A DNA stretch of 64,000 nucleotides from the NCBI RefSeq assembly GCF_020520425.1, contig NC_079491.1, positions 39,298,027 to 39,362,026 of the forward strand, in the 5' to 3' direction. Positions 1,857 through 50,462 of the stretch are shown here, in pieces. The notes beneath the pieces were generated by a model that saw only the letters and a program-made list of their open reading frames with translations, was not told the DNA's origin and ran no database searches. The stretch comes from Spinacia oleracea. Its lineage: Eukaryota; Streptophyta; Magnoliopsida; Caryophyllales; Amaranthaceae. How positions within the stretch are numbered: position 1 is the first letter of the stretch; each line of letters opens with the position of its first letter. A program made the translations under genes and the position numbers.

Positions 1857-1857
1857 G

Positions 1858-24798: not shown

Positions 24799-24870
24799 GG
24801 TTGCTCGTACCATTTCTTACAGGAGGTTGTCTAAAACGATACTGGGTATACCATAACAATGGTATACTAG
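24799..24870 (+). repeat. left terminal inverted repeat of the giant MULE
   Basis: Starts GGTTGC. The inner 30 bases (24841-24870) begin ACTGGGTATACCAT and end AATGGTATACTAG, itself an imperfect palindrome. It aligns ungapped with the reverse complement of 50391-50462. Confidence 0.8.
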
Positions 24871-25947
24871 GGACAAGAAGGTAATTGTAAGTGGAGTAAA
24901 GGTGGGTGGCCCACCCTTAATCACCACTTCAGATATTTTGCAACTTCTCTCTCTAAAATTCTGTTCCAAAATTTGAATTTCAAAATTTTTTTTGACTTTT
25001 CAATTTATCTTTAATTTCTATTTTATAATTTACTGATTATTAATTTAATGTTATGTAAAAAATCAGGTGGTGGTTTCATTTTTACTGTTTCTTTCCAAAA
25101 TACGGTTCTTTCGTCTTCTTCCTCCTTGCGTGCTCTCCCGCTCAATTGATCTCCCTCCAAATTCTCCGTCAAGAACTGCCCAAATTCTCAGTCTCTCGTT
25201 AGAAGGTTAGCCACTTCGTGACTGGTTTCCAATTCATACAGTCCAAAAAGGGTGTTTGCCAGGGCGATTATATTTGGTGATATTTGTTAACTAAGGAACT
25301 TCTGAATTATTTTCCAGGTGAAGTTAATTTATTTCTGTATGAATTGTTCTTTAGTTCTTGTTTTGGTAATATTTTTTGTTTTCACAGTTTTTTGGGGCTG
25401 ATTTGATTTTTAGGGTTTCACCATTTTGTTTGACAATTGTGTTGCTGATGAATTGAAAGTGAATTTTTTTCACAATTATGTTCTAATTACTTGAAGTAGC
25501 TCTTGTTAATGGAAATTTAAGTGTATATTTAATTTAGTGATAAAGTAGCTATTTTTATGGAATTTTCATATTTGGGGTTAATTAGTGGTTAATTTGTGGT
25601 TATTATGCGAATTCTATACTGTGATGTTTGTTGTTGAATTACTTTCCAAGTCGAATTAAGTAATTTGATAAGCCTTCGTTTAGGTAAAGTTAAACTGATA
25701 TGAAGGGGTGCCTGATTAATGTTTAATTCGTGTGATGGCATGCTTTTAAAACTACCTTTGTTTGTTTGATTGTTGTTTGGTACTTGATCTGGTACCAAAT
25801 GGAAAATATTACATATTTTGATACATTTAGGTAAAGGATATATGATTTGGTATTTTCTTTGGAACCAAACCTAAATTATCAATGTGTTTGGTACTGTTAT
25901 ATCGAAGGTATGCATGGTATAATGATTGGTAAAATTGTATTTGTAGG
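24871..25947 (+). promoter_or_regulatory. promoter and leader region of the Ulp1-like gene
   Basis: A CT-rich block (about 25085-25205) resembles a plant 5' leader. TTGTATTTGTAG just before the first coding ATG is an intron acceptor, so a leader intron ends at 25946. Copies of TTTGGTAC or GTACCAAA lie at 25776, 25792 and 25887. Confidence 0.5.
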
Positions 25948-28900
25948 ATGGTTATCAAGGGACAAAGTGGTAGCAGCAGCAAACCTAGGGTGAGTGTCAC
26001 TGCTCTTTTTATGAGTGTATCGTATTTGCTGATAATTGATAGTATGTATATTGTTATACGTTTATTAACAAGATATGTATTTCAATATTGTTTTTAAGGA
26101 AAAACGCGTGGAAGTTGCTCGGAATAGTAAGCTAAAGGGCAAAGACCCTGTCGTCGATGAAGAAATGGAAGAAGATGAGGAAGGGCGATCGCTGTCTGGG
26201 GATGACAGTGAAGAATCTGTTTTTGACGGGGATGCATATGAAGATGTTGAAGATGATGAATATGAGGATGAGATATATGAGGACGAAGAATTCGAGGATG
26301 AATTATGCCAGAGAACAGTGAAACGTGCGCCAAAGAAAAGGCAATCTGCTAAAAGCAGGAGGGTTATTTCATACGATGAAGTAGAGGAGGAAGAAGATAT
26401 AGAAGACGAAGACGGTGAATATATGGATGGTGGGTATGAAGATGAAGGAGAGGATGTTGTTGTTCGCGTTCAGAAAAGAGGTAAGAGTTGGAAGGAGGTC
26501 GGGCAGAATGCTTTGAAGAAGAAGGCACATCTGCAGATGATGCGGAAGAGGCGTAGAGAGGATTATGATGATGTTGACGAGGGAAGGAGACCTGTGAAGA
26601 AGACGATACTTCCTGCGATGAAGCAGATGGGTAGGAAGTTTGATGAAACAGGGGTAGCAAAAGGAAAGCCCCCTGCAAAACAGAAGGCAATCAGAGGGAA
26701 TAACAGGAGGATGTTTGTGCGGGTATATAATTTTGAAATTTATTCATTGTTTTTAAGGATTTTTATGGTATAATAATGTTTTTTCTACGTAGTTGATGCT
26801 AATGTTTTTTTCATATTTAGGTACCGATTCCCAAACATCCTATGTCTAGGGGTGAGTATGCGAAGTTTCACAGCGTGGTAGTTGCTACTCAGCGGGCTAA
26901 TTGTGGCCGGAAGGTACTATTGATCCTTTATTTAAAGATGAATTGTGTATTTTGATTAGGTTTTGTCAGTTGATAATTTCAATTTTTTACTTAAACTATT
27001 ATGTGTAGCAACCAAGCGTTATCTGTCGCACGGATGCATTTTCTAAGATTATTGCTGCTTTTGATGAGTCAAGGAGAAGTTGCGTTAGGAAAATGGGTTT
27101 CGGGGGGATGTTGGATTTGAAAATATCCAAGCTACCTAGGCAGCTGTGCTACTGGCTGATGTCCCGGTTGGATGGGGGTAACAGTTACCTTGTTGGAGGG
27201 GACGGCCATGTGTTGCCGATAACTGCTTCCCATTGGGAATATGTATTCGGATTCCAGAACAACGGTCTTCCGGTGCCAGTGAAGGAGTCTGATCTTCCTC
27301 CAGGCACCCTTAAAGCGATGGCCCTCAAGTATGGTGAAAAGAATACATCAACCTCAAAGAGCACAATAATCATAGCAAAATCTGTAAAGGAATTGGCAGG
27401 GCCGGTTGACGGTGAAGGAAAGATAAAGCCCCTGGCTAATCAGCGTGATAGGGCCTCGTTCATGGAAAATTTCATGATTGTGTTGCTGGGGCAGATTTTA
27501 TGTCCTTCTACCGATGGGGGTAACATGTCTTTAAAATTGCTAGGTGCAGTTTCCGTGGCAAAGAATGCATCACTGTACAATTGGTGTGAGTTTTGTCACA
27601 CATGGCTTTTAGACTACGGAGACGCCTGTCAGCGGAAGATAGACCATCAGGGGTATGTCGCTGGGACTGGTGGTTGTGTGTTGTTTTTGCTGGTGCGTCT
27701 ATCTTACTGAAATATTTAATGTTTTAAATTATATAAAAGGTTAATACTGTTATTGTTGTGGTGTTAGTATCCTGTCTTATATTACAGTGCCTTACCTGAA
27801 AGTGGATTTGTTTTACAGATTTTCTACCTAGACCATTTATGCAGGCTCAAAGTCTGGACACAGGAGGAAGTGGATGAGGCCAAGAATCGGGATAGGAAAG
27901 CGAGTGAAGATTATGGAAGGATTACGGTGGGTAACTGGTTGTTAGTCGGTCGTATTTGTCATATTAAATTTTGTATTATCTAATCTGACTGAAATCTATT
28001 CCTTTTATAATCTTTCCAGACTGTTGATGTTGTGTACGGGGATCCTCATCCCCTTTACGGCAGGGAGGGTAGACGGTCTCCCGTAGTAGAGGTTGCTGAG
28101 ATGGTAGCACAGATGACTTCTTCAGAATGGAGACGCACCCTAGCTCAGGAGGTCACAGAGATGGTATGGGAAGTTAAACGCTTTCCTCAATTTTATGTTG
28201 ATGTTAGTGATTAATAGCCATAAATGTTTTAGGGTTTCAAATAGTACTCATAAATGTCTTTAGGTGTACCATATGAATGATATTGATGTTGTTTGGTACT
28301 CTCTGTAGTGGGATAATTTTCAAATATTGAGTGTTAGTGATAAACAGGCATACATGTGTAACTAGTAAAAAATAGTACTCACGCAGGTCTGGAGGAGTCA
28401 TGTCTGTGTGTATGAATTACATTACCTTTTTTTTCTGTTTAGGTTATGGGGCAGCTTGCTCCATTATTGCAAGATCGCCGGGGCGTATCCCGTGAAAGAG
28501 GAATGAGGTCATATCATGCTACCGATCATTTGACGATAGATGTTGATGGTGTGGCTATGCCGTTGGACAAGTCTGTCAATAAGGTGCTTACAGAGTTGGA
28601 TGCCGATGACGATTCCGATGTGGAGTTGCAACCGTCTGATGGGGGACGTGTATTTGTGGGCCCTCATGGGAGTGTGCCAGTTATGAATCCCCTAGACCCG
28701 GTCAGCCACGGTGATGTACCTTTGGTCCACACTGCTGTCAGCCACGGTGATGTACCTTTGGTCCACACTGCTGATGATTTTGGTGTAGTAGCAACTGACC
28801 CAGAAACAAGCAAGCACCCGGTCGACCAGACACATCAGCACGGACAAGTTCAAGCTGGTGACGGGCCACCTTCAGATGGAATGTCATCGGAGAAGGTGGG

Positions 28901-30826
28901 ACAGCTGGGTGTAGTTGAAGACAAAGAGGATGATGAAGACAATGGTGAGGAGAATGTTGAGGAGCCGGAAGAGCAGGATGGTGGCGTCAAGGATGGGGGG
29001 CCGAACAATAGGGATGATGACGATGATGAGGGACCGGCTAATGGTCCTGTGCAAGGAACGGTTGCAGCATCGCCCTTGGAGAACATCGCTCAAGAGAACC
29101 CCTCTGAAGATAAGAACAGTGAAGAGAACACCAGTCAAGATAACCCCACTGAAGGGAAGACCACTGATGAGAATCTCCAAACTGATGACCAAAAACGACC
29201 ACGGGAGAAATTGATCCTAAGGATTCCGAGAACAAACCCAAAAACACGCTATCGGCAGACGCGAGTACGAATGACAAAACTTGAGAGTGACGTAGTAGCT
29301 TATGTGGAGTCATACAATCCTAAAGGGAAAGAGCAGTACGTTCTACAACTTTTACTCATGTGACACTTAAGTACGTTGTATACACTAATGTACGTTGTAC
29401 ATTTATGTAATGATAATCACTTGTATCTGTATTTTATGTTTGCAGGGGGGCCATGCTTATCGAGTGTGATGGTAATGATGCAAATCGGATGATGTGCTAC
29501 TCGGTTGTGCATCCTAGGGAGTACGTGCATTCCCAGTACGTTCGGGCCGTTGCAAACATATACAACAGGGAATGGGCTCTGGAATACCCAACGAATTCTC
29601 GCAGAATCATGCTGGACTCCTCATTTGCGGTATGTTCTCCTAATATTCACCATTAATGAAATCAATAAAGTAAGCGTACGTGGTTGCTTAGTTTTTTGTT
29701 GTTGTGCTTTACAGTATCAGAAATTAAAGACGAGGGAAACATATGCTGGTCTGCTGAAGAAGTGGTCCACCCCTCTCCAGAAGATTGTGTCAGCTGATAT
29801 ATCTGTGGTAAGTCTAATTAGTCTTTTTACTCCATGTTTAGATGTCTGATTATATGCCAACAACATGTGTCTGACTATTTTCGGACTAATAACTGAGTGA
29901 TGAGGCCGTATTTTAAGGATTTGGAAATAAGTTCCTACATGCCTTTTACGTTGAATGATTGCTCTCTATTTGGTCAGTTCGGGATCTGTCTTCTTTTTGA
30001 GGAACGTCCTTGTACAATTTGTTATTTTAGTTTTTGGTGTATTAATTGTCCGCGACACACAGGTATGCGATTTGTAAGAATTTGTAATTATCATGTCCAG
30101 GTCTATGTTCCAGTTGTGGACAACGGACATTGGTGGTGTGTTGCTTTTGCACTGAAAGACCAGAAGATATGGTTCATTGACAGCATGTATACTAATCCTG
30201 CTTCCGAGCATTCTGGGGATGTTAAAAAATTGGTATCTAATCATGTGATATGTAGTTTTTACTTAGTTTTTACTTAACCTGGTTTGGTGGGAGTTTAAGA
30301 ACATTGACTTCACTCATTTTATTGTACTAACATAATACGGTCTCCTCATTCCAGATAGCAGCTGTGGAGTACGTTCTACATTGGAGGGACACGCAGTATA
30401 ATGCAGCTCTTGTTTGGAAGTTGAAGCAAATGCATACTTGGCCCTTGGACTCCATTAGCTTCCCTGACTACAACGACACGTACTGTTTATGCTACCTTTT
30501 CATCGTCGAGTAACCACCTTAAGTCTTACTGATATGTTTTGTTTGGCTTTGTAGTCATGCGTGTGGAATAGTAATGCTTATGGCTATCCAGGAAAGTGCA
30601 AGGGCATTTACAAAGACGATGCAAGTGGTAAGTCCTCTACTACTGTAACTGTAAGTGCTATACCCCCACACTATAAACTTACAGTTGTCTTTTCAAACTT
30701 GTTTTGGGACAGGGGGACATCAATGTAGCTCGGAAGGAACTGTTTTTGTCTCACTTGAATTCAGATTTCAACTCCTGTCGCCCGCTTCTTCCCCAAATCG
30801 TTGCAACCCACTGCCCAGTTCGTTGA
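25948..30826 (+). CDS. Ulp1-like (C48) cysteine protease gene of the MULE
   Basis: A model of fifteen exons and about 1,124 residues: 25948-25989, 26099-26722, 26821-26913, 27009-27692, 27819-27926, 28020-28163, 28443-29335, 29446-29629, 29715-29807, 29918-29972, an 11-nt microexon 30063-30073, 30101-30232, 30355-30479, 30555-30627, 30713-30826. Phases agree throughout; 29918-30073 is the least certain part. Order of parts: an acidic and a basic N-terminus (about 20-220), a domain resembling plant DUF1985 (MGFGGMLDLKISKLP), an acidic low-complexity linker with VSHGDVPLVHTA twice, then the protease. Catalytic His is in DNGHWW, Asp in WFIDS, Cys in THACGIVML. The oxyanion Gln usual six residues before Cys appears to be Tyr. 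Ulp1 enzymes cleave SUMO; substrate here unknown. It is read inward from the left end, where MuDR has mudrB. Confidence 0.8.
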
Positions 30827-32241
30827 TGTTTGGTCGTGCTTCATCTGCTAACGTTTAGGGTTTTTAACCGAGAAAACAATTGCACACTTATCTGGTCAAT
30901 TTTTGAAATGTGATTAACGCGTGAACTAAATCATAGTTGTTGTCTTTTGATACTCACATTATTCCTAGGAGATGGGATTCATTGCTTGCAGGTATGTTTT
31001 GTAAGTTTTGTGGTATGCTTTGTATCGTGCATTAAAGATTTACAATACGAGTTTGGTACGTGTTGTGGTACTTAATAGGTTGTTTGGTACCGTTATTAGA
31101 AAAGTCTGGGTACAATCTACGAGTTTGGTACAGCCTGAACTTTGTTCCGGCTTTACATGGTACCAAGCATAAATTGAGTACCAAACAAGATCAGATATGT
31201 ACCACACGAACATTAGTAATTGTTGCTACAAAAGTTGGATGATTAAGAGTTAGACAAAATAGTTCGCAAACACGGTGACCTCAGTAATCAAAATTTGCGG
31301 TGTTTATGAATTTAGTCAATAACTACTTTTCATTTCAGCAGTGTTTATTGTTATAAAGGATAAAAAGGTTATATCAAGTCCTAAGTCAGGTCCGACCCGT
31401 TCGACAGGCTGGTAATTTTGTATCGAAATACAATTTTGACACATTAGTTTTTTTAGATACATAAGTACTGGCACACGAGTTGAGATATTAAGAGTGAAAT
31501 TAACGGTTGCTACAAAACATTAAGTACTGGCACACGAGTTGAGATACATAAGTACTGGCGCACGAATTTCTACATTTTGTATAATTCATCCTGTAATCCA
31601 TCCAAAAAAACAAGAGCATTATATATATTTATGCAGATCGTGTGAAGTAGTTTCCATTATTAAGTAGTTTCCATTATTTAAAGCGAAGAGGGTAATACGA
31701 ATCATGGATTATATTATCCCCCGTTACCATTGGGTAATATGATTCTGGACGGTTCTTTGTAAATGAACTATTTAATTTTCGGTAATATTAATCATATGTT
31801 ATAAGGGTTACAGTTTGGTATACCTCTTCTATTTGATTCAGACTCAACTGAATACTAATATGAGATAAAAACGTACAATACCTTGGTTTGGTACATTATC
31901 AGCCGTAAATTGTCACCCGTTTGGTATCAAGTTCGGTAGTTGGGTTTTTATTGTGGTTAATTCTCGTTAATTTGAATTTGAAAATTGAAAAATGTGATCT
32001 TGTGTATTGTTTGTAGAGTAATCTGGAATCAACACATAAACATATGTTTAAACTAACCAAATCACACTTTTACATTCACACTAACCAAATCAAAGGAAAT
32101 ATTATGCTGAAGGAGGATGTCAAACACACAGGGTAATTAAAAAAATAACTAAAGCAATACATTTGTGAAATATGAAACAATCACACAGCTAACACTATGG
32201 CATTGAAATAATAGTATGCAAATGGCCAGACTTCCAGGACA
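30827..32241. other. MULE spacer rich in GTTTGGTACC words
   Basis: No gene is seen. 31052-31204 is the densest part of the motif set, with four exact copies and at least three near copies in about 150 bp. ACATAAGTACTGGC...CACGAGTTGAGATA is repeated imperfectly near 31459-31565. Confidence 0.6.
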
Positions 32242-32817
32242 TTACATGCCACCACACTGAATCCTCCAACTGTAGTTTGCATTCCCCACACTTGTGTCGA
32301 AATTATTGAAATCAATGTCACTCGATACATTAAGTAGTGGTTCCCTAGGGTTCCAGGTATTTGACCCTTCCCTCCACAGGTCACAGACGCACTTATATGT
32401 AAACCTTGTGTAAGTGCCATTTGTTTCTTTGTACTCTAGGGTTTCATAGTATCGAAAATTAAGGGTACGTACTCTTTCGGAGAATTTCCAATCAAAGTCG
32501 GGGCGGTAGTATTGATTGATCAATTCCATGGCCCACTTCTTGCATGCGAACACTGAATTAGCCCTAGTTGGCTTGTCCATCTTAGACCATATGACACCCA
32601 TTATATTAGCATCTCCGGCAACAATTTCGACGCTCTTGGACTTCGCACATCCGTGTTGGTCTGGTTCAACCACCGCATAGCCATACTTTACCGCGAGGTC
32701 GATCTCGAATTGTTGTATGAGGTCGTGTTTGCGAGCAGTTTTGTGTTGTTCCGTATAATCGAAACGGTAACGGTGGTTAGGACAAACTCTGGGGTAATAA
32801 TTTGGCGGAATTTCCAT
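32242..32817 (-). CDS. MULE cargo protein, 191 residues, copy A
   Basis: Unrecognised single-exon protein. It begins MEIPPNYYPRVCPNHRYRF and ends NYSWRIQCGGM. About 77% identical by eye to copy B over its full 191 residues without gaps. The stretch WSKMDKPTRANSVFA and several aromatic/charged blocks are unchanged between copies. There is no signal peptide or membrane segment. The start MEIPPN is taken from agreement with copy B; an upstream in-frame ATG belongs to a duplicated leader word (GTCTTCACAAAGCATTTC twice, about 32830-32882). A TATA box lies about 95 bp upstream. The open, gap-free duplication suggests selection on the protein. Function unknown. Confidence 0.75.
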   Translation of the reverse strand: MEIPPNYYPRVCPNHRYRFDYTEQHKTARKHDLIQQFEIDLAVKYGYAVVEPDQHGCAKSKSVEIVAGDANIMGVIWSKMDKPTRANSVFACKKWAMELINQYYRPDFDWKFSERVRTLNFRYYETLEYKETNGTYTRFTYKCVCDLWREGSNTWNPREPLLNVSSDIDFNNFDTSVGNANYSWRIQCGGM

Positions 32818-32912
32818 TTTCTCGAATGAAATGCTTTGTGAAGACAATGAAGTTTATGGAAATGCTTTGTGAAGACATTGAAGTTTATGGAAATAACCCT
32901 CACACGAAGTGT

Positions 32913-32921
32913 TATTTATAG
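32913..32921 (-). promoter_or_regulatory. TATA box of copy A
   Basis: CTATAAATA on the minus strand, followed by ACACTT, exactly as in copy B and at about the same distance from the ATG. Confidence 0.7.
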
Positions 32922-33460
32922 AGCGCATGTTTTAACCGTCACATAACTGCCACCTTATCCATTTAATAAAAAAAACACCCATATTTCGTTATGCTAACCT
33001 TACACTATTCCTTTAATTTGAAAAAATTATACCGTTGGTACCTCTGTCGCAATATAAACAGTACCAAACATGTGTTGTTCATTGGTTTGGTACTACTTTA
33101 CTCAATGGTACCATATGCCTACGGAATAAGGGTGATCGTAGACCATTCGACGAAATTATAACATGACCTTTGAAACTGTTAGTGTTATTTGTCGTTCGTT
33201 ATTGAAAACCTAATTACCATTATACAAATTTTAAAAAAATACTTCATTTTAGCAATCATAGTTATTAAACCAAATCACACCTTTACATTACAATAACATA
33301 ATCTAAAGGAGGATGACAAACACACCAAATCACACTTCACACTAGGGCATTTAAATAAAATTAAGCAAAACATAAGATGAAAAGAAAACAATCACACACC
33401 TAAAACTATGACATTGAAATAACAGAACGAAAATGGGTAGAGAATTCCAATTCCAAGACA
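32922..33460. other. spacer between the 191-residue paralogs
   Basis: No gene. It holds motif copies at 33061 and 33086 plus near copies GTTGGTACC (33034) and ATGGTACCAT (33105). Confidence 0.6.
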
Positions 33461-34036
33461 TTACATGGCACCACACTGAATCCTCCAATTGTAGTTTGCA
33501 TTGTTCCCACTTTGATCGAAATTATTGAAATCAATGTCACTCGGTACATTGAGCAGCGTTTCCCTAGGGTAGAAGAGATTTGATGCTTCCTTCCACAGGT
33601 CACAGACGCACTTATATTTAATCCTTGTGTAAGTGCCATTTGTTTCTTTGTACTCTAGGATCTCATAGTATCGAAAATTAACGGTACGTACTCTTTCGGA
33701 GAATCTGCAGTCGAAGTTGGGGCGGTAGTATTGATTGATCAGTTCCATGGCCCACTTCTTGTATGCGAACACTGAATTAGCCCTAGTTGGCTTGTCCATC
33801 TTAGACCATATGATACCCATTACATTCTCATCTCCTGCAACAATATCGACGCTCGTGGGCTGTTCATCACCGTGTTGGTCTGGTGCAACCACCGCATGGC
33901 CGTACTTTTCCGCGAGGTCGATCTCGAATTCTTGTATGAGATCTGGTTTGCGAGCAGTTTTGTGTTGTGCGACATGATCATAACGGTAATGGTGGTTAGG
34001 GCAGACGTTGGGGTATGCATTTGGTGGAATTTCCAT
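33461..34036 (-). CDS. MULE cargo protein, 191 residues, copy B
   Basis: Unrecognised paralog of copy A with the same length and start (MEIPPNAYPNVCPNHHYRY). The C-terminus ends NYNWRIQCGAM. Conserved between copies are WSKMDKPTRANSVFA, KKWAMELINQYYRP and LEYKETNGTYTR. The N-terminal Cys/His words (CPNHHYRYDH) might bind metal, but no known finger pattern fits. The gene lies in tandem with copy A, same strand, about 0.64 kb apart, each with its own TATA box, so they are separate transcription units. Function unknown. Confidence 0.75.
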   Translation of the reverse strand: MEIPPNAYPNVCPNHHYRYDHVAQHKTARKPDLIQEFEIDLAEKYGHAVVAPDQHGDEQPTSVDIVAGDENVMGIIWSKMDKPTRANSVFAYKKWAMELINQYYRPNFDCRFSERVRTVNFRYYEILEYKETNGTYTRIKYKCVCDLWKEASNLFYPRETLLNVPSDIDFNNFDQSGNNANYNWRIQCGAM

Positions 34037-34114
34037 TTTGCAAATGAAATGCTTTGTTGTGAAGAGATGTGAAGAGAGAATAAAGTTTTTGAATATCTCC
34101 CTCATACTAAGTGT

Positions 34115-34123
34115 TATTTATAG
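34115..34123 (-). promoter_or_regulatory. TATA box of copy B
   Basis: CTATAAATA on the minus strand followed by ACACTTAG, about 80 bp before the ATG. Confidence 0.7.
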
Positions 34124-34808
34124 AGGATTTGATGTAACGGTCACAAAACTGCCACCTCTTCGGTTTTATATTATTTAGATAATCAACCGTCACAATATAG
34201 ATAATCAACCGTCACAATATACTCACACTTACTGACGCCAACATTTACACTTAAGAAACCTTGTATCTTCTTCAAACTTTATATCTTCTTCAAACTGCTG
34301 ACCTTTGTTGTCAGTTATGATATTCAATTCGCGCGATTTTCAACCTAATACGCTTTAATATTTCAGCTTTATTAAAGACCCCCAAAGAAATTACCAGACA
34401 GCGTCCCTTCGTTACACTAAATGTTGACGAAAAAATAGGATTGTCGAGTATTAAGTAGCCCGTATGAAAATTTAGCGTAGTCGAGTACAAAGGCGTTATC
34501 GAAAATTACAATAAAATTACCCACAAATGGTAATTACACAATATGGTTCATTAAATAGTTGCAAACACTTAACATACTTGCAATCACTTATCATAAGACA
34601 CACTTACACACATCTGCAAAGCCTAATTTCATAAACAGAAAGACGCACTAACATTACACAGTTGTATACAATGACATCAATTTTTAAAATAACATTTACA
34701 ACTTACACTGCGTCACACTAACTTACTATTAATATGTACTACTTATAATGCTTCACACCTTACTTTAGCAAACATACGGAATTGCGTTAACGAATGGAAT
34801 AATCAGTC
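34124..34808. other. MULE spacer with a 22-bp tandem repeat
   Basis: AGATAATCAACCGTCACAAT(AT) occurs twice in tandem (34177-34198 and 34199-34220). No gene is seen. Confidence 0.7.
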
Positions 34809-35279
34809 TCACGGAGCAAGCGTAGGGGACTTGATACGCTCAATTCCTATATTAAGATCAATCACCCTTTGTTCTGCGTCGTCATATTGCTCAATGATTT
34901 CTTTCATATGGTCACAATGATCCCCATGACCACCGATACGCAGCGCCTGGTGTAGCGATGTAAAGAAATGACGTTGCATGGATTTGAGTCGATGTATATG
35001 TTCTTTGCAATTTCGTATCCCATTCTCCATTACCTTGTTCATTTCATCAACGCCTTGCTCCACATCGTCATACCTCTGTAGAAAATCTTTGAAAAGGGTC
35101 TTAGCCCGATTCTTCCCTTCCCACCTCATTCTTATCATTGTTGATTTTATGCAGTCACGTTGAGTTATTTTCGCTTCCTTGATTTGTTGCACCTTTGCAT
35201 TAATTTCTTCCATGGCACGTTCTTCCGCCGTGGGTCTATGAGGGACGCCAGACCATCTTGAGTTTGCGGACGATGCCAT
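34809..35279 (-). CDS. MULE cargo coiled-coil protein, 156 residues
   Basis: Small, highly charged, predicted mostly helical. It starts MASSANSRWSGVPHRPTAEE and then has heptad-like stretches (AMEEINAKVQQIKEAKI; YDDVEQGVDEMNKVMENG; EQYDDAEQRVIDLNIGIERI). No known domain, signal or membrane segment. The start at 35279 is preferred over the ATG ten codons upstream because the TATA box (35334-35342) would put the transcript start close to that upstream ATG. Coiled-coil proteins often dimerise; whether this one partners another MULE protein is unknown. Confidence 0.65.
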   Translation of the reverse strand: MASSANSRWSGVPHRPTAEERAMEEINAKVQQIKEAKITQRDCIKSTMIRMRWEGKNRAKTLFKDFLQRYDDVEQGVDEMNKVMENGIRNCKEHIHRLKSMQRHFFTSLHQALRIGGHGDHCDHMKEIIEQYDDAEQRVIDLNIGIERIKSPTLAP

Positions 35280-35333
35280 TTTATTATCGTATTTCTCCAA
35301 TACATGCACTCTATAAACGTGAATGTGTTCTCC

Positions 35334-35342
35334 TATTTATAG
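35334..35342 (-). promoter_or_regulatory. TATA box of the coiled-coil gene
   Basis: CTATAAATA on the minus strand, the same nine bases as before the two 191-residue genes. Confidence 0.6.
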
Positions 35343-35992: not shown

Positions 35993-37452
35993 ATGAAGAA
36001 ACTGAAGTCGATTTCGAGTAGGGTTGCGCAAAACCAGGTCTCTGGGACTTGCCAAAATTACCTTTCACATCCAAATTGTGTTTTTTATTTCAATCCACCA
36101 AAATCAACAAACGTCCCTGAGTTGGACTACAACAACACCTCGTACTACGTCAACATGGAAGACTTACAAATGCTTTTTCCGTTAGATGAAGCAATTAAGA
36201 CGGACTTGAATTTTCAAGTTACTGCTGTCATGGACAAATTGCCGTACACCCATGAAAATTTCCCTTGTGCCATCGTGGCAACAACTGAAGGGAATGCTGC
36301 TGCAGCTCACCGTCCTTTAATCAGAGACCAACCGCACATGCATTTGGGCTTCTGGAGGTTTCTCGACTGGTGCTCCAACCAACTGAGGGAACAACTTGAC
36401 TGGAAGTTGTACCCAACGGAGCTTCTTACAGTCGTTGACCCCGTCCCAGACATAGATGTCCAGGATCTACCAATTTATAACATCCCCGCCTTCGACGCAC
36501 ACATTTTCATTGCATCCTACTCAGACACTATTCACATTATGAGGGCGGAGGACTTTTTCTATAGCCTAAATGTCAGAGTGAGCCGGCGATTTTTTTGGGG
36601 CATGTCTCGTGCCTACACAGACATTTCTGTTGAGGGACAAAATAAATTCGAGGGGGTACCAAATACGATCCCACGCGGTTTGATTGTGTCAATATGGAAC
36701 GCTAAGTCCATGACAAGGCCATCATTCAAGGCGACATTCTTGGAACTGTTTGCAACCCACCACCCGGCTCTCTTGATTGTCACTGAAGCCAGGATAAGCG
36801 ACGAACACTGTCAGGAACTGATAACTACCCTACCAGGAAAGTACGAGAGTGCAGTGTTCGATAACATAGATCAGTGTGGAGGGGTGGTTCTTATGTGGCG
36901 CGTTAACGATCTATTCGTATCTTACAAAGAAGATGATTCCACGGCAGAAAGCGGGTTGTTCAACTTCACATTTGAGGTAAAAAGCGTACAACACCCCTCT
37001 TTCTACATACTCTACTTAGATTAAATGCCCTTTGAAACGACATTGATTACCTTTACATGAAATTTGACCTTAATCTGAGAGTTTAGTACCGTAATAAGGT
37101 CGAAAAGGGTTCCATTCCCGTGCATGTAGTTGTACCTTTCTACTACTTTTCTTAATAACTTTTACGAATGTGGTACCAAACACAAACTACACTAGTATCA
37201 TCTTTGCAATCCACCTTAATATTTCTGGACACTTTTAGATTGTGCGATGGCCTCTCCAAATTAATGTTGTGGGTAGGTAGCTAAGTAAGTCCAAGAGTAT
37301 ATAAGTTCAAATGAGGACGCACCCAATTATATTCAATACGTTTCCTAATTCGACGTCTACTATGTAACTCATACTTACAATTTTGTGTACAGCCGGTGGT
37401 TTACGTGTCAAGAAAGAAAAAAGTAGCCCGTACGTCGGAGTTGGGTCTATGA
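35993..37452 (+). CDS. MULE cargo: unknown domain plus truncated LINE-type endonuclease fold, gene 1
   Basis: Two exons (35993-36976 and 37393-37452, phase 0), 347 residues. Residues about 20-220 form an unrecognised domain shared by three genes in this element (HPNCVFYFNPPKSTNVPELD; FWRFLDWCSNQL; DLPIYNIPAFDAH). Residues about 225-320 (IVSIWNAKSMTRPSF; LLIVTEARIS; CGGVVLMWR) resemble the first third of the endonuclease-exonuclease-phosphatase fold at the start of plant LINE ORF2 (WNCRG; ETR; GGIWLLW). The Asn and Glu of the active site are present, but the later catalytic Asp and His are not included, so nuclease activity is unlikely. The short last exon adds a basic tail (VSRKKKVARTSELGL). 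The intron carries a motif copy (37173). The frame is open. Function unknown. Confidence 0.75.
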
Positions 37453-39104: not shown

Positions 39105-39567
39105 GACTGGAAGTAGTTTCTTGTTAAATCTCTATAGAAAGTTGGATGCAAAATGAAATAAAACCTAGGAATGCCTCATTTTAATTATAGAAGTACAGGA
39201 TAAGGAATGCAACAATGAATGATTACCTGTGTTGGTGGTTGGGGTTTAAGTCCAAGTACAACTTTAGTAAAGGGTAGTTGGCGTAACTAGAGTATATTAA
39301 TGAAAAGACATAAAATAAACTTACTTGTGTAATGTACTATTCACAAAAAATACGAGGAAAAAATACAAGGTCAAAGTATCTGAATTTGTATTGTTTATGT
39401 ATTATAAAATTTTAAGGGGAAATGCAATAACTACAGCGTACTTTAACACCAACGTCCGTAATTAAAGTTACCAGTTGCCCTACTTATCACTAACGACTGA
39501 CTGACTTGAGGTCCTCCCCTACAATCAAACCCGAAGTCCCCATATACTGTTAATCAAAGGAAGCCTA
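39105..39567. other. divergent spacer in the MULE
   Basis: It lies between the 309-residue gene (minus) and endonuclease-like gene 2 (plus). AT-rich, with no gene and no exact motif copy. Confidence 0.5.
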
Positions 39568-40939
39568 ATGCCAAAATCACCAACCCAAAACGTTTTAAAA
39601 CAATGTGTAAGCAATGAAACGTCCCCAACCAGGAACCTCCTATATCATCCTCGCGAAGCAATGTACTTCTCCCCGGCTGCGGGTTTGCGATATGAGTTGG
39701 ATATAAATCGTACCTTTTACTTTCAGACCTATGACGAGATCATAGGGGAAGAGGAGTGGAACCCCGTTGATAGGGACACTATCGTACGGGCAATATTTTC
39801 AAAAACATCGGACAGAGAAGGATTTCCCGGTAGGTTCATGGTAACGGAGAACAACCGTGTATTACCATTCCACCTCCCCACTCCCGAAGACTCGGGTGGT
39901 CGTATTCCAGCTGGTTTGTTAGCTTACATAGAGTGGGAAGCTAGGAGTAGGACCGAGTTTGAGGCGTTTGAGGTAATCCCTTATAAGTACTTACCTTTCA
40001 TTGATCCCATTCCAGTACTACATATTGACCAAACACCGGTATACATTGTACCAATCAAAAAAACCCCTATATTTTTTGGTTCTTACACCGATGGACTTCA
40101 TGTCATGAAAAACTCTAACTACATTCACTCAATTGACGTTGATGTCTTCTACCGTGAAGGGAACCTGTATAAAAAGGGTTACCACCATATTCACCTGGGA
40201 TCAACAGAACAATACGTCGGTCATACAACACCGACACTACTGGCAAAGGGAATGTTAGTGGTCATTTGGAATGCTAGAGGTGTAACCAGGCCTTCGTTCA
40301 AGGAACACTTCTATCGCATATTTTCCCAACTTACACCGTCCATTATCATCGTGACCGAGTCAAGAATAAATGAACCTCAACTACTGCTTATCGCACAAAC
40401 ACTGCCTGGGACGTACCAACATGACTTATTCGGTCCCGAAGGACGAGCCGGGGGTGTTGTTATGTTTTGGTCTGTCAACCAAGTCCAGCCATCGATTACG
40501 TACCGGCATGATCCCGTTTGTCAAATGGGGGGAGCAAAACCTAAACACCTTGCGTCGTTACAATTTCATGTAAGTGTCTTCCGTTTTACATAGACATATA
40601 GTATGAGATAAGGTTCCAAACGACGGTTTGGTACACAAACAATAACTACATGGTGTACCAAACCATTCAGTTTCGGCCATGCATTTTCGATCCATATAAA
40701 ACTGATTTGACCGAGAAAACACGTATTTTGGGGTATTACTATACCAAACGAGGGCATATAAAACACCAAATGTTTGATAGTGTACAAATGGGGGTTACAA
40801 GGGAGGAATGTATGTTTGTGGTTCATTGTAGCTCAATAATGTTTGATAAAACATATAACAATTTGTTCCTTTTATTCGTACGTAGGATGTGATCCCGGGA
40901 ACGACTTCCCGAGCAAAACGACGTCTATTGATGTGCTAA
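39568..40939 (+). CDS. MULE cargo: unknown domain plus truncated LINE-type endonuclease fold, gene 2
   Basis: Two exons (39568-40569 and 40886-40939, phase 0), 351 residues. Most diverged of the three paralogs, yet with the same order: LLYHPREAMYFSPAAGLRYE and DQTPVYIVPI in the unknown domain, then LVVIWNARGVTRPSF, IIIVTESRIN and GGVVMFWSVNQV in the endonuclease-like part, and a short basic last exon (TTSRAKRRLLMC). The intron sits at the matching point and carries two motif copies (40627, 40655). Divergence with a kept frame, splice site and tail argues for long selection. Active-site Asn (WNAR) and Glu (TESR) are kept; later catalytic residues are absent by truncation. Function unknown; a DNA-binding or decoy role is only a guess. 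Confidence 0.75.
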
Positions 40940-41149
40940 GCGTTGCAGACGGACAGACCCAATGAAAGGTAGTATTAGCTTTCCCTAATCCATAATAACT
41001 AAAAACAGTCCCCCAATTAACGCGAACAAAACTTACGGGAATACGACACACAGATGTAATTTACATACGAAATATATTGATGAAATTGTCCAACTCTTAA
41101 AATACGCTTTTTATTGATTATTACGATCTTTTACAAAGGAAACGTCGAT

Positions 41150-41518
41150 TTACTTTGGGAGGAGAAAATACACAAAAACTATAAGACAAACGACGAATAA
41201 TTTATACAACATCCAAATGCATGATTCAATCTTGTCGAGGCGGTGGAGGACGCGGTCCAGCCCAACATCAACAAGACGCGATGGCAGCATGTTTTCCCCT
41301 GTTATTAAATTGTGATCTTCAACCCACCGGAACCACCCACAAAATCGACATTTAAAATATAATTTATGTGGATTTGTGGTTGTCTGTGAAATCCTTAGTT
41401 CAGTTATGCAAGTGATGCATGTTGGACAACTGATCGTCTCGCACCAGAGCATCTTCCGGCCATCTACGCATCCCACGTTTGCCGGCGGTGACCTTAGGGA
41501 ATTAGAACTATGAGACAT
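41150..41518 (-). CDS. GRF-type zinc finger protein with C-terminal membrane segment
   Basis: 122 residues. The middle (CITCITELRISQTTTNPHKLY, split here as CITCITELRI and SQTTTNPHKLYFKCRFCGW, then FRWVED) fits the GRF zinc finger: Cys pair, conserved R-x-S, N-P, then Cys and an aromatic W/F-x-W. The C-terminal 25 residues (MLYKLFVVCLIVFVYFLL) form one hydrophobic helix. Many plant genomes carry such small GRF-plus-helix genes of unknown role (annotated as At4g04775-like). GRF fingers in other proteins bind single-stranded nucleic acid. It lies inside the giant MULE with its own TATA box, so it travels as cargo. Single exon, open frame. Confidence 0.75.
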   Translation of the reverse strand: MSHSSNSLRSPPANVGCVDGRKMLWCETISCPTCITCITELRISQTTTNPHKLYFKCRFCGWFRWVEDHNLITGENMLPSRLVDVGLDRVLHRLDKIESCIWMLYKLFVVCLIVFVYFLLPK

Positions 41519-41581
41519 TAGCCGGCGTTATTTAATTTTAAATTATTTAAAATGAGCTAGGAAGTGGCCAATTTCTTGTGG

Positions 41582-41590
41582 CTTATATAG
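41582..41590 (-). promoter_or_regulatory. TATA box of the GRF zinc finger gene
   Basis: CTATATAAG on the minus strand about 65 bp before the ATG. Confidence 0.6.
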
Positions 41591-41785
41591 CTGTGGTGGT
41601 CAAAGTCAAAGATTCTTTGACAAGCTTCCAACACTTTTGAGTTTTTACTGAGGGAGGCGGGAAAATTCCCGCTCAATGTTTCAAATTAATTTTGGAATTC
41701 TCCTATTACTACGTTGTTTGGGATAGGCCATTTCGTACGTTTGGGACCTTAATTTAAAATTATTTTTTAATGTATCGTATTTGTT

Positions 41786-41836
41786 ATTGGTTAATTAATC
41801 GTATTGGTTAATTAATCGTATCGGTTAATTAATCGC
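41786..41836. repeat. 17-bp tandem repeat, three units
   Basis: ATTGGTTAATTAATCGT three times in tandem, the third with slight changes, then two partial units to about 41865. Confidence 0.8.
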
Positions 41837-42604
41837 ATTCGTAAATTATTCGTATTGGTTAAGGGACTGAATGTGTACCCGGTCGAGAAGTCGCCCAAAT
41901 CTCATTTGGGTCTAGGGTTGAAAATCTAACGAATGACGGTATAAATCCGACAACGCTCACAAACCTTAGTAGTGTTAAGAACCCGATAGTTGATTTCAAA
42001 AATCCATTCAATCCGATTACCTTAGATTTACCTAATTCATTCACTTAGGAGGTAATTATCATTTTATAACCACATATGTATATAATTATGTAGTAATAGT
42101 CTTACTAAGTGTAATGTATGGTCGTATGTGTACAGATCGTGGTCATCATGAAATCATAAAATTTCAATTTTCGTATTTGCATAAATTAATAACACTTGAT
42201 ATTTTGAATATAAATATCAGGATAACATCATCGAACATCATAACATACGTAAATTAAGACAACCATGTACTCTTACATTGTTATATTGTTACGTAAACAC
42301 ATTTTATTCTAAGACGTGAGAATTTTCAATTTTAAACACATATTGTAAGACATAAACACATTATATTGTAAGACGTAAACAACCTATTAATGAGGTACTA
42401 ATACTAATAAAAGTTCACAAATGTAATCATTACATTTTATTACTAATATTGGGTTTGGAGTCATTTCAAATATGAGTTAACAATGTTCGGACACCCTAGT
42501 GTCGAATAGGTCACGGCAAATTAAAGACCTATAATATCCGACTTTTAACACATTACAGTACCCTACACCCTTTACCTTCAAACATATCACTAACTTGTAC
42601 ATAA

Positions 42605-43003
42605 CCCTAAATTCCGATTCTTAGTAGTCTACTGTTCCATACCGACAATATGAGTGTGCCAAACTACTTATGATAACGAAACCACATTTCCCTAAAATCC
42701 AATTCTTAGTGGTCTATTGTTACATACCGACAATATTAGTGTCCTACAAGTCATAGTAACTAACCCTAAAATCCGATTCTTAGTAGTCTGTTGTTCCATA
42801 CCGACAATATTAGTGTCCCAAACTACTTATGATAACGAAACCACATTTCCCTAAAATCCAATTCTTAGTAGTCTACTGTTACATACCGACAATAATAGTG
42901 TCCTATACAAGTCATAGTAACGACAACACATAACCCTAAAATCCGATTCTTAGTAGTCTGTTGTTCCATACCGACAATATTAGTGTCCCAAACTACTGAA
43001 TCA
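42605..43003. repeat. minisatellite with alternating unit types
   Basis: Five units starting CCCTAAAATCC at 42605, 42690, 42764, 42849 and 42934 (74-85 bp each). Two versions alternate: one with TGTTCCATACCGACAATAT, one with TGTTACATACCGACAATA. This gives a dimeric higher-order period of about 160-170 bp. Confidence 0.85.
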
Positions 43004-43346
43004 AACGAAAACATCACCAAAGTCGGATAAATTGTGTTCAACATTCAACTATTGATTTCACTCAATAATAAGAACAATTATGCAGATAACGTTAAATAGC
43101 AGTAGTTTGCATTTACTGGAAAAGTACTCTGGAGCGGTACCAAGTAATAAGATCAGTAAACCTGGTGGTACCAAACGACGTAATAACTTTTTAACCCACC
43201 TAGGTTGTTAGGAATTTATTTCACTACGTTTTTTCACCGACAACTTTAGTGTAGTATTCACTTCCCTTTATAGTTGACAACCTCCTTCCAGTGGGGACTC
43301 CTCAAACCAACCCACTTGTTTCTCCTTCTAGCTGTTCAAACCCTAA

Positions 43347-44681
43347 TTGTTTCCAAATTCTCCACCGGCAAACCTGCCAAAAATGGACAAAGGCAAATCT
43401 ATCCTTGTTTGTGATAGCAGCCGAACACTACTCTGCCACCCAAAAGCCATAATGTACTTCGAGCAGCCAAAATCTTCAAACGGGCCTGAATTGAACTACA
43501 ACACCACTTACTACTACATCGACGTCGAAGACGCAGAAAATGGTCTCCGTGTGCCGCACGCAATCAAAACTGACCTGAATATCCAGCTTTATTGTGCCGT
43601 TAGTAAGTTGCCTTACCACCCTGTTATGTTCCCTTGTTCTGTGATGGTCACCTCTGCAGGTAAAATCCTGCCTGCACACCACCCTTTAATTACGGACCAC
43701 CCTAATATGCATCTTAGGTTTTGGGCTTACTTAGATTGGTGTTCCAACCGGCTTGCTGCACAAGGGTCGTGGTTGTTGTACCCGAACAACCTCCTCGCTG
43801 TGGTAGACCCTAGACCAGCTGTAGTTGTGGACGACCTCCCTGTGTACAATTTCCCTGATTCCAGGAGCCACGTTTTCATTGCATCCAACGCTCATGCTAT
43901 TCATGTTATGAGTGTGGAACATACGTTTACTGGGGTGGAAATTACTGTTGTTCCAAGGTATTTTCAGACCAAACGACGGGCTTACACTGAGGTGTGCTTA
44001 GAGGGAAAGACTATGGTTGGGACGGAGGTTTCCGCCTTCATACCACGAGGTACGGTGGTCGTTGCATGGAACGCCCTATCCATGACCAGACCCTCATTCA
44101 GAGCCACCTTCTTTGAGATGTTTGCAAGGCACCATCCATCACTCATGGTCGTTACTGAAGCCCGAATAAGTAACAACGACTGCAAGGAGCTAATTAGCAA
44201 CTTACCAGGAGAATATCAATCCAAATGATTTGAGAATCAATGCGGAGGGGTTGTCCTTATGTGGCAGGGAAACGACTTGTTACCAAATTACAATGAATCT
44301 GATTTGGGTTCGGCCAACCTCCTGTTTACTGTCTTATTTGAGGTACTTCATTTAATTTCTTATTTCGGTTCCCAACGCTTTGTTTTACACCGTCTGGTAA
44401 TTCCATTAGGGTACCAAACAGGTATGCTTACTGCATTGGGTTGACTCCATAGTACCAAACAGGTGTACATAGTACTGCATTACAATGCATACCGGTATTT
44501 TATGGGTGAGTATGGTACCGTTATGGGTGAGTATGGTACCGCTACCGCTATTATTATGTCTCATACGAACTATGTAATGTAGACAATTAGAAAAAATTTA
44601 AGTTGATTGTAATCGTTTATTTGATTTATGCAGTCGGTGAAGCTCCAGAAGCAACCACTTGCGCGTAAACTGGAACTGTAA
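43347..44681 (+). pseudogene. MULE cargo: unknown domain plus truncated LINE-type endonuclease fold, gene 3 (interrupted)
   Basis: Two exons by analogy with its paralogs (43347-44342 and 44634-44681). Close to gene 1: LLCHPKAIMYFEQPKSSNGP, FWAYLDWCSNRL and DLPVYNFPDSRSH, then VVVAWNALSMTRPSF, LMVVTEARIS and CGGVVLMWQGND. A single in-frame TGA (44226-44228) follows GEYQSK; the same frame then continues with the conserved CGGVVLMW, so the gene is recently interrupted or the stop is read through. The short last exon again gives a basic tail (KQPLARKLEL). The intron holds two motif copies (44411, 44452). The start could also be the Met 12 codons later (MDKGKSILV). Confidence 0.75.
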
Positions 44682-44701
44682 GCGCCAGAGTCTGGAGCTA
44701 T

Positions 44702-44823
44702 TATACACAATTTTCCCCATCAGTGTGTGTGTAGTACTTATTATGTAGGGTGGTTTTTACCTATACACAATTTTCCCCATCAGTGTGTGTGTAGTACTTA
44801 TTATGTAGGGTGGTTTTTACCTA
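44702..44823. repeat. 60-bp perfect tandem duplication
   Basis: The unit TATACACAATTTTCCCCATC... (60 bp) is repeated once with no difference, just after the last exon of gene 3. A recent event. Confidence 0.9.
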
Positions 44824-45553
44824 TAGTATAAGAACTTAGTTAGGTACTAGCTTAACTACGGCGTAGTATTTATCGGCATAGTATTCATCACCATGACGTA
44901 TTTAGTTATTAGGTTTGGGTAGATTTTTTTATCCTACTTCTATGGCGTAATAGTAACAGGTAAGTTATTTGTTGTTGTTCAGACATTGCCTACCTTTAGC
45001 TCGTCGGAAATGTAATAGGTGTATTTTATAGTTTCAACCTAGGCGGCGCTGCCTTCCATGTAATATTTTGCGGATGATGTTTTTCGTATTACTAGTCTTA
45101 TTCTTGTTCTTCATACGTATTATTCGTCTTTATTTTTTAAAAAAAAGTACTGGTGTTACGACAAGATGTAGTACCCCTATAACTTTAACAAATAGTCGTT
45201 CTATAACAGATACCGCAAAAACACTAACACGAATACTGTAAAACATAGCAAACACGAAGTAGGGTACCAAATTACCGAATTATACATGGTTTAGTACATA
45301 GCAAACACGAAGTAATTCAGAGTTCTGTGTCAATTATGAAAATTCAGTTTACGAAAGTATCTAAAGTAACCTTATTTAAGTTACGACATCCTGTAAACCC
45401 CAAATTGGGTTACAAATTGAATCATATGGTTACAGAGGAATGCACATATGGTAACACGCCATAATTCAGACTTATTGGATGGAAGTCAATCAACTTCAAA
45501 TAACGTACCACAAAGGTAGATTTATTGGGTGGATTTCACCATGGAAATCAATT
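44824..45553. other. MULE spacer before the transposase 3' end
   Basis: No gene; one motif copy at 45264. It separates convergent genes (gene 3 on plus, transposase on minus). Confidence 0.5.
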
Positions 45554-48500
45554 CTAATTCTTCGTAAGGTCATGACAACCGAGCAGGTCTTGAGTGAATA
45601 CTGGATTACCACTGGCGCCATGTATAGAATGCGTTCCACACCCACCCTCATTGACTAAAAAACCCGGATTGGACTGCAACAAGTGTTTAATAGTTGGTTG
45701 ATAACTACGGTGATCCCCATGGGAGGTTTCGTTCACAACCTGGAAACTATGCCGGTGCTGGTTATGATTTGCAGGCATACAATGAGTCCCGACCTCTTGA
45801 TAATTTCCACCTATGTTGCTGCTGTTACTGGTGAAGTAACGAATGGAACCAGCATTCTGGGACATTTGCGACATCTGAGATATTTGCACTCCACTCAAGT
45901 TTTGCGACATTTGCACACCATTAATGTTCTGGGACATGTGTAAACCGGATAGGTTTTGGGCAATTGGACCACCAGATATGTTTTGTGACATTGATATACC
46001 ACAACGGTCTTGGGACAAAAGTACGTCACCACCCTCCGGGGTCATACGAATCCCACCCACAGACATGCGAATTTCTGTCTGTCCTGAGGGAAACAAATTT
46101 GTGGCAACAACTCCACTTACTCTTCCAGATGACTGTATACATGTCAAACGCTAATAAATACAAGCTAAATGTTGTTGACGGTTAATAAACATTTAATAAC
46201 ATGAGTGGTACAAAAGGACACGAAAAAAATCACCTGAAACTGTTGAACAGATACCCCATTGTTGTAGTTCTGCTGAGGGTATACCATAGTCCCCCCTTAC
46301 TTGCCCAGCCATTTGAGGCGGGTAATCAGCACTATACCCCTGGAAATATCACAAAAATCAATATTTGTTTAAATAGAATATCACAAACTCACAAACTCAC
46401 ATCAATATTTGTTTAAGTTTAATTTGTAGCGTATGTGATTCACTCACATATTGATCGTGGGATCCCCAACCAGGATGGAAGGTGTTTGGCGGCTGCACGT
46501 AGTTGTGTTGAGGAAGGCAAGTGTTCTGACAATTGCTGGTTTCTGGAAAGTCTTGTGGTACAACACTCTTGTTTTTCCTGACTTGCTTCCTTGCGGGGTT
46601 TTTATTCTCACCTGGTTGTAAAAATCTTTTTTCACGAGTCCTGTGAGCCTTTAAACCACCGCGCGGAACAGGATCTTTAACCATAATAGGGGGGGTAAGT
46701 GTGGTAGTATCATCCCCAACGCTGTTTGGAGGTTTGTTAACGGAGCCTGGTGTCGTAGGACCAACAATCGCCATCCTGTTCCCCCCGGAAGTCAGTGCAC
46801 CAGCTTCGTTATCACCAACTGCTGAAAGAGCATCACTCTCATCAAGACGTAACACAATATTCATAATACCTTCTATGACCAAATCCAACTTCTGCTCGGA
46901 AAGTGATCCACGGAGGGCAGCAGGTTCCACCGCATTCATAATCCGGTCATAGCGCTTAACTTCTTCTGTTTTCTCAGGATCATGATAAGCAACCTTCACA
47001 AGAGTGTGCTTGCGTTGTATATCTTTCCTCCATCGGTCAACTATATATCCAGCAGGCATATTTTCCACATCCTCCACGTCCAACACCTTAATGATGTGCC
47101 TACACATAATGCCGTGGCACTCGAAATGTTTGCAGTCACACTTTGCAAAAGAGGTCTCCTTGTTGAACATCACGACGTATATACGCTTCCGGCCTGCCAA
47201 AGATATTTCCTTTCTCAAGAACTTGGACCATACCCATACTTTGTCAGACACCGTATGCTCAACCTCCACATCAGAAACTACTTTCGAAGTAATAGGTGTT
47301 ACGTAACATACCCGCATACATTGGATCTGGACTTCAACGAACTTCGCATCCGTATATAGTTTCTGGAACTTCCTCTCCACAGCAAACTCTCCAACCAAAG
47401 ACCGAGTAAAACGACAGCAGTTCACATCAGCAGCTTTTTCATCATTGGCCCTAATTTCCATGGCCTTGCAGTACCTAGGAGCAAACTGATATAATCTCGT
47501 ATTCTTCTTCAAGTACCCGTCGAAGAAACTATTAATACTCTCAACCCTCTGAGTCGTCTGCATCCCCGCCCAAAAAATATGCTTCACATATGCAGGTATC
47601 CACCGCTGATTATACAACCCTATACATTTAAAAAAGGTCATTAGGTAAATTAACAACAAAGGAATTGAACATGAAAGACATTCTCACCAAAGACAATGCC
47701 ATATATGAAATACCTACCACATTGCACATGTAAATCAAATATTTATTGCAGTTTGGTACATAATTAAATGAAAACGTGTACCAATCCAAAATGTTATCGC
47801 GGTTTCGTATGATGTATACTTTACCATATCACGATTAGAATTAAAAGTAGTACCAAACCATGATAAATACCTACTAGCCACTTGTAGCTTTCCTTAGCCT
47901 CCTTCAGCTTGAAAGTTTCCACCACTTCAGCCCAACCTTCTTCGAATTCAACAGGGGTCAAACTGTTGTATATGACATTCTGTAGGGCAACTTTTATTTG
48001 GGGAAAATCAGTCATCGAACCCAATTTTCGGCTAAACTTCTGCATAATATGCCACATACACCAACGATGTCTGGTTTTAGGCATTGGCATTGCTATTCTA
48101 ATTGCCTTCCTCATAGCCGCATCCTGGTCGGTCATAATAGCAGCGGGAGCTTTACCCCCCATACAAGACAACCATGCCCTAAAGAGCCAAACGAACGTTT
48201 CCGCGGTTTCATGAGACACTAATGCACATCCAAGCAAAATTGTTTGCCCATGGTGATTCACCCCAACAAAGTTCGAAAATGGCAACTCATACTTGTTTGT
48301 CAAGTACGTGGAGTCAAAACAAACCACATCCCCAAAATACTCATACGCGGCTCTGCTACGAGCATCAACCCACATTACATCCTGCAACTTCCCTGTTTTA
48401 TCAAGCCGGTGGAGATAGAAATTTTTTTGATTATCCTTTGTCATTTTATCTAAATAATTTATCATTGCAACAGCATCCCCATCTCGTAGCCTCAATCGCA

Positions 48501-50390: not shown

Positions 50391-50462
50391 CTAGTATACC
50401 ATTTAAATGGTATACCTAGTATACACAAAGACTTCCTCTTCTTACAGTAACTTTGTGCAACC
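50391..50462 (-). repeat. right terminal inverted repeat of the giant MULE
   Basis: The inner 30 bases (50391-50420) contain TATACCATTTAAATGGTATA, a perfect palindrome, and match the left repeat at 26 of 30 positions. Outward to GCAACC the match weakens to about half. Confidence 0.8.

Follow-up and report, generated by a model that had tools for sequence, protein, structure and literature searches.

A recurrent 9-bp word in the non-coding DNA of a multi-gene spinach Mutator-like element: a candidate anti-silencing target code

A multi-gene Mutator-like element in the spinach genome

The window analyzed here, a stretch of 64,000 nucleotides of Spinacia oleracea (contig NC_079491.1, positions 39,298,027 to 39,362,026), contains a Mutator-like element (MULE) with several genes, in whose spacers and introns a 9-bp word, GTTTGGTAC, recurs many times; we consider it probable that this word is read by a protein of the element itself. 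The element ends were set at 24823-50438 because a 9-bp duplication stands exactly at 48-bp inverted repeats; among 80 x 80 combinations of possible ends, no other gave a 9/9 match (Table 1). By its sequence the element is a MULE (Mutator superfamily), as the preliminary description had proposed: the 9/9-bp target duplication fits the MULE range of 8-11 bp, and one encoded protein carries the MULE transposase domain (PF10551, E 3.5e-33). The same protein has a SWIM domain (26.6 bits vs a cut-off of 19.6, E 4.3e-6) and a FAR1-like N-terminus that scores below the cut-off (25.0 bits vs 28.1, E 3.1e-5), and removing the predicted intron 47620-47870 yields a continuous transposase frame. All gene models are approximate, being assembled manually from reading frames with the help of simple splice scores. 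The terminal 9-mer TGGTATACC/GGTATACCA has two internal copies, at 31816 and 46278, both non-coding.

Copy number and location of the word

GTTTGGTAC occurs 18 times in 64 kb (10 plus, 8 minus strand), always within the MULE and never in the 38.4 kb of flank, against a mean of 0.52 and a maximum of 4 copies in 100 dinucleotide shuffles of the window. Among words with at least four copies it is the top 9-mer both in the element and in its non-coding part. With 12,277 bp of the element scored as coding and 13,324 bp as non-coding according to the hand-made models, all 18 copies are non-coding (p 8e-6), which bears out the earlier claim that the word is concentrated in the spacers and introns of the MULE. 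(The coding split, clustering and phasing across the element were computed with ends at 24830-50430; moving to the final ends lengthened the element by 15 bp without bringing in another exact site.)

The preliminary description had been built on the embedded 8-mer TTTGGTAC/GTACCAAA, with 22 exact copies where 0.8 were expected. Between 25776 and 47857 we count 24, with 12 each on the plus and minus strands, and the stated expectation was too low: 2.4 copies are expected in the element under a second-order Markov model, and 100 dinucleotide shuffles of the window, which holds 27 copies in total, give a mean of 3.0 (standard deviation 1.9, largest 11). Only three copies lie outside the element, exactly as described, at 3850, 11500 and 12682, and the last two fall in opposite arms of a single inverted repeat (11405-12784). 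Its 112-bp arms are 96% complementary with 1,156 bp between them, and the context of the 8-mer in it is unrelated. The statement that all 8-mers are non-coding holds for 23 of 24, the exception at 36656 lying inside endonuclease-like reading frame 1. The 10-bp form GTTTGGTACC, previously taken as the unit, is present in only 4 copies.

Sites with up to one mismatch number 50 in the element (46 non-coding), whereas the flank, at 1.5 times the element's length, has 7. The 27 one-mismatch words together have 32 copies where about 10 are expected, so that the exact word predominates. Exact sites are clustered: for 10 of the 18 the next one is no more than 60 bp away, where chance would give 2.5 (p 0.0018). 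They occupy 9 of the 20 non-coding segments, and sites with up to one mismatch occupy 12. A tandem array at 42597-43013 (unit lengths 85 and 159 bp) repeats the one-mismatch variants GTTTGGGAC and GTTTGGCAC.

Helical phasing between sites

A phasing of the sites was noticed first by eye in the site list and tested afterwards. Among adjacent non-coding sites with up to one mismatch and at most 60 bp apart, the spacings are 18, 21, 21, 30, 31, 33, 41 and 41 bp for pairs pointing the same way, 17, 17, 18, 27, 29 and 37 bp for converging pairs, and 13, 24, 24, 25 and 58 bp for diverging pairs. This is the pattern that would be expected if the sites shared one side of the double helix and the bound protein were centered away from the midpoint of the word. 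With the period fixed at 10.5 bp and the offset fitted in the jittered null too, the p-values, stated per single setting, ranged from 0 of 4,000 up to 0.0025. When one copy of a 21-bp tandem repeat was dropped, 0 of 3,000 jitters reached the observed phase at distance limits of 50 and 60 bp, and p was 0.0003 at 80 and 0.0040 at 100 bp. Scanning the period as well (8 to 13 bp) gave a best period of 10.25, overall about 10.25-10.5 bp, with p values of 0, 0.0017, 0 and 0.005 at 50, 60, 80 and 100 bp, and the phase stayed in place both when annotated tandem arrays were taken out and when a decayed 70-bp duplication (25775-25894) was collapsed (0 or 1 of 5,000 in the latter case).

Non-coding sites with two mismatches (n=60) took no part in finding the phase and served as an independent check with all parameters fixed. 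Half of them (30) have a strong site no more than 60 bp away, where 12.1 are expected under even placement. Relative to the strong sites, 29 pairs within 40 bp had a mean cosine of 0.48 (0/500 jitters), the 60 bp limit likewise gave 0/500, and 68 pairs within 100 bp had a mean cosine of 0.26 (p 0.008); with annotated tandem arrays removed the result was 0 of 3,000. Pairs of two-mismatch sites alone were marginal (p 0.04-0.05 with fixed, 0.13-0.14 with fitted offset). Of 400 permuted words, 321 gave enough pairs for scoring and a single one scored as high, TTTGGTACG, which is the word rotated by one base.

Words next to the endonuclease-like genes

Three paralogous genes between 35993 and 44342 encode proteins whose C-terminal part resembles the start of the endonuclease/exonuclease domain. 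None of the three has a Pfam match, and a profile built from them matches exonuclease III at E 0.1 only; structure prediction from three sequences gave a mean predicted local distance difference test score (pLDDT) of 38. Three old paralogues of this kind within one MULE are apparently undescribed so far.

One or two words had been claimed for the intron of each of these genes. Downstream of every predicted donor there are indeed one or two exact 9-mers; a conserved second exon beyond the donors was searched for and not found, so that these stretches may be introns or 3' flanks. Synonymous sites between the paralogues are saturated (proportion of synonymous differences 0.74-0.84), and beyond the donor, whose protein position is the same in all three, the alignment of their DNA is no better than that obtained with shuffled sequence (30 shuffles per pair). 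Because the word is nevertheless present next to each gene, neutral inheritance of a 9-mer across this divergence does not appear credible, and we infer that the words were kept or regained.

Other genes and neighboring features

Among the minus-strand reading frames, a pair of recent duplicates (dS 0.21, dN/dS 0.57, i.e., synonymous divergence and the ratio of nonsynonymous to synonymous divergence) gave a mean pLDDT of 36 in a structure prediction from two sequences. Peptide tandem repeats are coded in the Ulp1-like gene at 28701-28773 and 29079-29173, and coding tandem repeats occur in the transposase gene as well. A search for transposase relatives in viral and prokaryote contigs returned 3 and 7 pattern matches, none of them confirmed, and in 24700-50700 no match to an Rfam family was above cut-off.

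To the left of the MULE lie a Copia retrotransposon (window 471-9618; 300-bp repeats at 471 and 9319, 98% identical; reading frames 4640-8458, the polyprotein frame being broken by a stop just before 6515), a two-exon P450 gene (17854-20007) and a DUF668/DUF3475 gene (22067-23809). Just beyond its right end lies a tRNA-like short interspersed nuclear element (SINE; 50497-50632, head at 50519), flanked by a 17-bp repeat, AAAGTACACTTCCTCTG, at 50497 and 50616.

Table 1. Features of the spinach MULE and exact copies of the 9-bp word (window positions)
Feature	Position	Strand	Remark
Target duplication TTCTTACAG, left	24814-24822	.	sole 9/9 match among the end-position pairs
MULE element	24823-50438	.	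25,616 bp; perfect target duplication at inverted repeats, MULE transposase inside
Left inverted repeat, with palindrome GTATACCATaacaATGGTATAC	24823-24870	+	48 bp; 36/48 positions agree with right repeat
GTTTGGTAC	25775-25783	+	5' of Ulp1-like gene
GTTTGGTAC	25886-25894	+	5' of Ulp1-like gene; second unit of decayed 70-bp duplication
Ulp1-like gene, approximate exons	26093-30510	+	candidate reader; Peptidase_C48 E 0.009, below cut-off
GTTTGGTAC	28291-28299	+	predicted intron of Ulp1-like gene
GTTTGGTAC	31051-31059	+	spacer cluster
GTTTGGTAC	31082-31090	+	spacer cluster; 31 bp after 31051 site
GTTTGGTAC	31123-31131	+	spacer cluster; 41 bp after 31082 site
GTTTGGTAC	31178-31186	-	spacer cluster
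GTTTGGTAC	31886-31894	+	spacer
Duplicated gene, copy 1	32245-32817	-	78% protein identity to copy 2
GTTTGGTAC	33061-33069	-	diverging pair with 33085, 24 bp
GTTTGGTAC	33085-33093	+	diverging pair with 33061
Duplicated gene, copy 2	33464-34033	-	partner of copy 1
Reading frame	34812-35333	-	no Pfam match above cut-off
Endonuclease-like gene 1	35993-36976	+	contains sole coding 8-mer
GTTTGGTAC	37173-37181	-	3' of predicted donor, endonuclease-like gene 1
Reading frame, 316 codons	37983-38930	-	no Pfam match
Endonuclease-like gene 2	39568-40569	+	29% identical to gene 1
GTTTGGTAC	40626-40634	+	3' of predicted donor, endonuclease-like gene 2
GTTTGGTAC	40655-40663	-	converging pair with 40626, 29 bp; 3' of donor, endonuclease-like gene 2
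Possible GRF-finger gene	41153-41524	-	Zn_ribbon_GRF E 0.63, below cut-off
GTTTGGTAC	43168-43176	-	5' of endonuclease-like gene 3
Endonuclease-like gene 3	43383-44342	+	in-frame stop; up to the stop 50% identical to gene 1
GTTTGGTAC	44411-44419	-	3' of predicted donor, endonuclease-like gene 3
GTTTGGTAC	44452-44460	-	41 bp after 44411 site; 3' of donor, endonuclease-like gene 3
Transposase gene (MULE, SWIM, FAR1-like)	45557-49476	-	one in-frame stop; predicted introns 47620-47870, 46084-46611
GTTTGGTAC	47751-47759	+	predicted transposase intron 47620-47870
GTTTGGTAC	47850-47858	-	predicted transposase intron 47620-47870
Right inverted repeat, with palindrome GTATACCATttaaATGGTATAC	50391-50438	-	48 bp
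Target duplication TTCTTACAG, right	50439-50447	.	perfect 9-bp copy of the left one

A candidate target code and its rivals

Taken together, these analyses suggest that GTTTGGTAC is probably the target word of a DNA-binding protein that is encoded by the element and acts like the Arabidopsis anti-silencing factor VANC. Such a protein would bind clusters of the word cooperatively and keep the spacers and introns of the element free of silencing, presumably with a loss of methylation, and the genes of the element would thereby stay expressed; as dense clusters are rare elsewhere, the host would be spared. Sasaki et al. (EMBO J 2022) reportedly found the specificity of VANC to depend on motif sequence, density and helical periodicity; a helical period, of 10.25-10.5 bp, is seen between the words here as well. 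Of the two roles proposed in the preliminary description, a self-recognition code and internal transposase-binding sites, the former in its VANC-type version appears to be the best explanation, and the phasing lends it support; for the latter, subterminal sites are disfavored.

Which protein would read the word is a more tentative matter. The Ulp1-like gene is predicted to be the most likely reader, a choice that we hold with some reserve, the reason for it being that an Ulp1 domain is found in some of the VANCs of Arabidopsis. Several points weigh against this choice or against a VANC-like role of the word as such. The match of the Ulp1-like gene to PF02902 is weak (16.2-16.3 bits, cut-off 20.7). 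VANC readers, in the passages describing them, have DUF1985/DUF287, and neither had a Pfam match among the proteins of the element when these were searched as exons or pieces. The targets of VANC21 are described there as tandem arrays pointing the same way, whereas here the word is found in both orientations and with one decayed duplication. The phase of the exact sites alone, with 5-9 pairs, has p values from 0.003 to 0.20 depending on the distance limit, and the analysis covers one copy of the element, with in-frame stops in two genes (transposase and endonuclease-like 3).

A signal acting in RNA is disfavored because the word occurs in both orientations relative to the genes. A protein of the element might also read the word for another purpose: the transposase might bind it at internal sites, or an ordinary transcription activator might use it to turn on genes of the element. 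The enrichment, orientation and phasing would fit such a role equally well, and the transposase has the FAR1-like N-terminus; FAR1-type proteins bind DNA. We nevertheless regard this explanation as unlikely. Subterminal transposase sites are disfavored because the nearest exact words are 952 bp (left) and 2,580 bp (right) from the ends, the one-mismatch site nearest to the right end being 902 bp away, and the terminal repeats have TGGTA alone in common with the word, so that the similarity once seen between the terminal palindrome and the motif comes down to these five bases. For an activator, the many sites 3' of genes would be odd, as promoters are concerned. Still less probable, in our judgment, is a reading by a host transcription factor such as an R2R3-MYB. 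The ACCAAAC in the word agrees with the AC-element consensus of these factors, which fits GTTTGGTA, and the related ACCAAAT occurs 14 times vs 6.3 expected, but the remaining six of the seven other consensus variants are found 0-6 times each, for the most part no more often than expected. Moreover, the dinucleotide before ACCAAAC is GT in 18 cases and AT in 5, the other 14 of the 16 being found 0-1 times each, and the 9-mer is absent from the 38.4 kb of flank.

It seems very improbable that the words survive, without function, from a small repeat or from short tandem duplications. This explanation could draw on the decayed 70-bp duplication, which holds four site pairs, on the 21-bp tandem repeat, which holds two variants of the word, and on a more sensitive comparison of flanks, in which two pairs of distant sites matched weakly over short stretches that include the word: 33086/47850 (28 bp, 86%) and 31083/37940 (31 bp, 81%). 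However, where sites are over 1 kb apart, their flanks are on average 13.8/50 identical (largest 25; 3,613 pairs), which is the chance level, and the possibility raised earlier that an unrelated repeat had invaded these spacers is disfavored. The phase persists with the duplications removed, and inverted pairs of constant spacing are not a product of tandem duplication.

A bolder version of the VANC-like reading would place the element, as a FAR1-type (Jittery-like) MULE, outside VANDAL, with a two-way anti-silencing grammar of its own: whole turns between sites pointing the same way, about 3.5 bp less for converging and about 3.5 bp more for diverging pairs, read by a protein without known VANC domains, perhaps one of the three expanded endonuclease-like cargo proteins. 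We consider this rather unlikely as it stands.

Should the VANC-like reading of the word be true, sequence-specific anti-silencing would not be a peculiarity of VANDAL, as it would recur where a MULE has a different kind of transposase, and a target code consisting of word, density, helical face and the relation of opposite orientations would be readable from a single genomic copy. It would also hint at how giant multi-gene MULEs persist. With a 9-bp word, a fixed geometry and a short list of proteins, the reader should be findable with one binding screen.

Comparison with known systems

A search of one literature library for four forms of the word gave a single, unrelated paper, and within the titles, abstract openings and passages covered on VANDAL, Kaonashi, Jittery and VANC no anti-silencing system outside VANDAL was found. 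The following comparisons refer to passages of three papers. In Arabidopsis, VANC21 binds a 9-bp word in the introns and in the intergenic and terminal non-coding DNA of its own VANDAL, which leads to a loss of methylation, and VANC6 recognizes a different word; the target words of VANDAL21 and VANDAL6 are YAGTATTAY and AGTTGTCC/AGTTGTAC, respectively (PMC5735166). The spinach MULE likewise has several genes and a word of 8-9 bp, present in many clustered non-coding copies in its own element and rare outside; the word itself differs from those of VANDAL21 and VANDAL6. Like VANCs, the Ulp1-like gene has peptide tandem repeats.

The combination of a transposase with an Ulp1-like gene in one MULE resembles that of the Ulp1-carrying VANCs (Kaonashi/KIU, PMC13317346). 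In contrast to Kaonashi/KIU, the Ulp1 match is weak, DUF1985 was not found in the spinach pieces searched, the transposase is FAR1-like and three endonuclease-like genes are added. The SWIM finger of the transposase and its FAR1-like N-terminus, the latter below the cut-off, resemble those of the Jittery MULEs (group 36 of a MULE survey, PMC6446971), and the 48-bp inverted repeats of the element are within the 39-292 bp given for Jittery; the target duplication there is 8 bp or not stated, compared with 9 bp here, and the table passage on Jittery names no VANC-like gene. FAR1 is listed in further rows of the survey besides Jittery, and the 9-bp duplication together with the 48-bp repeats fits its VANDAL row. 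The word appears to work like a VANC target code in an element that, with its FAR1/SWIM-like transposase and no DUF1985 or DUF287 detected in the pieces searched, is not assigned to VANDAL here.

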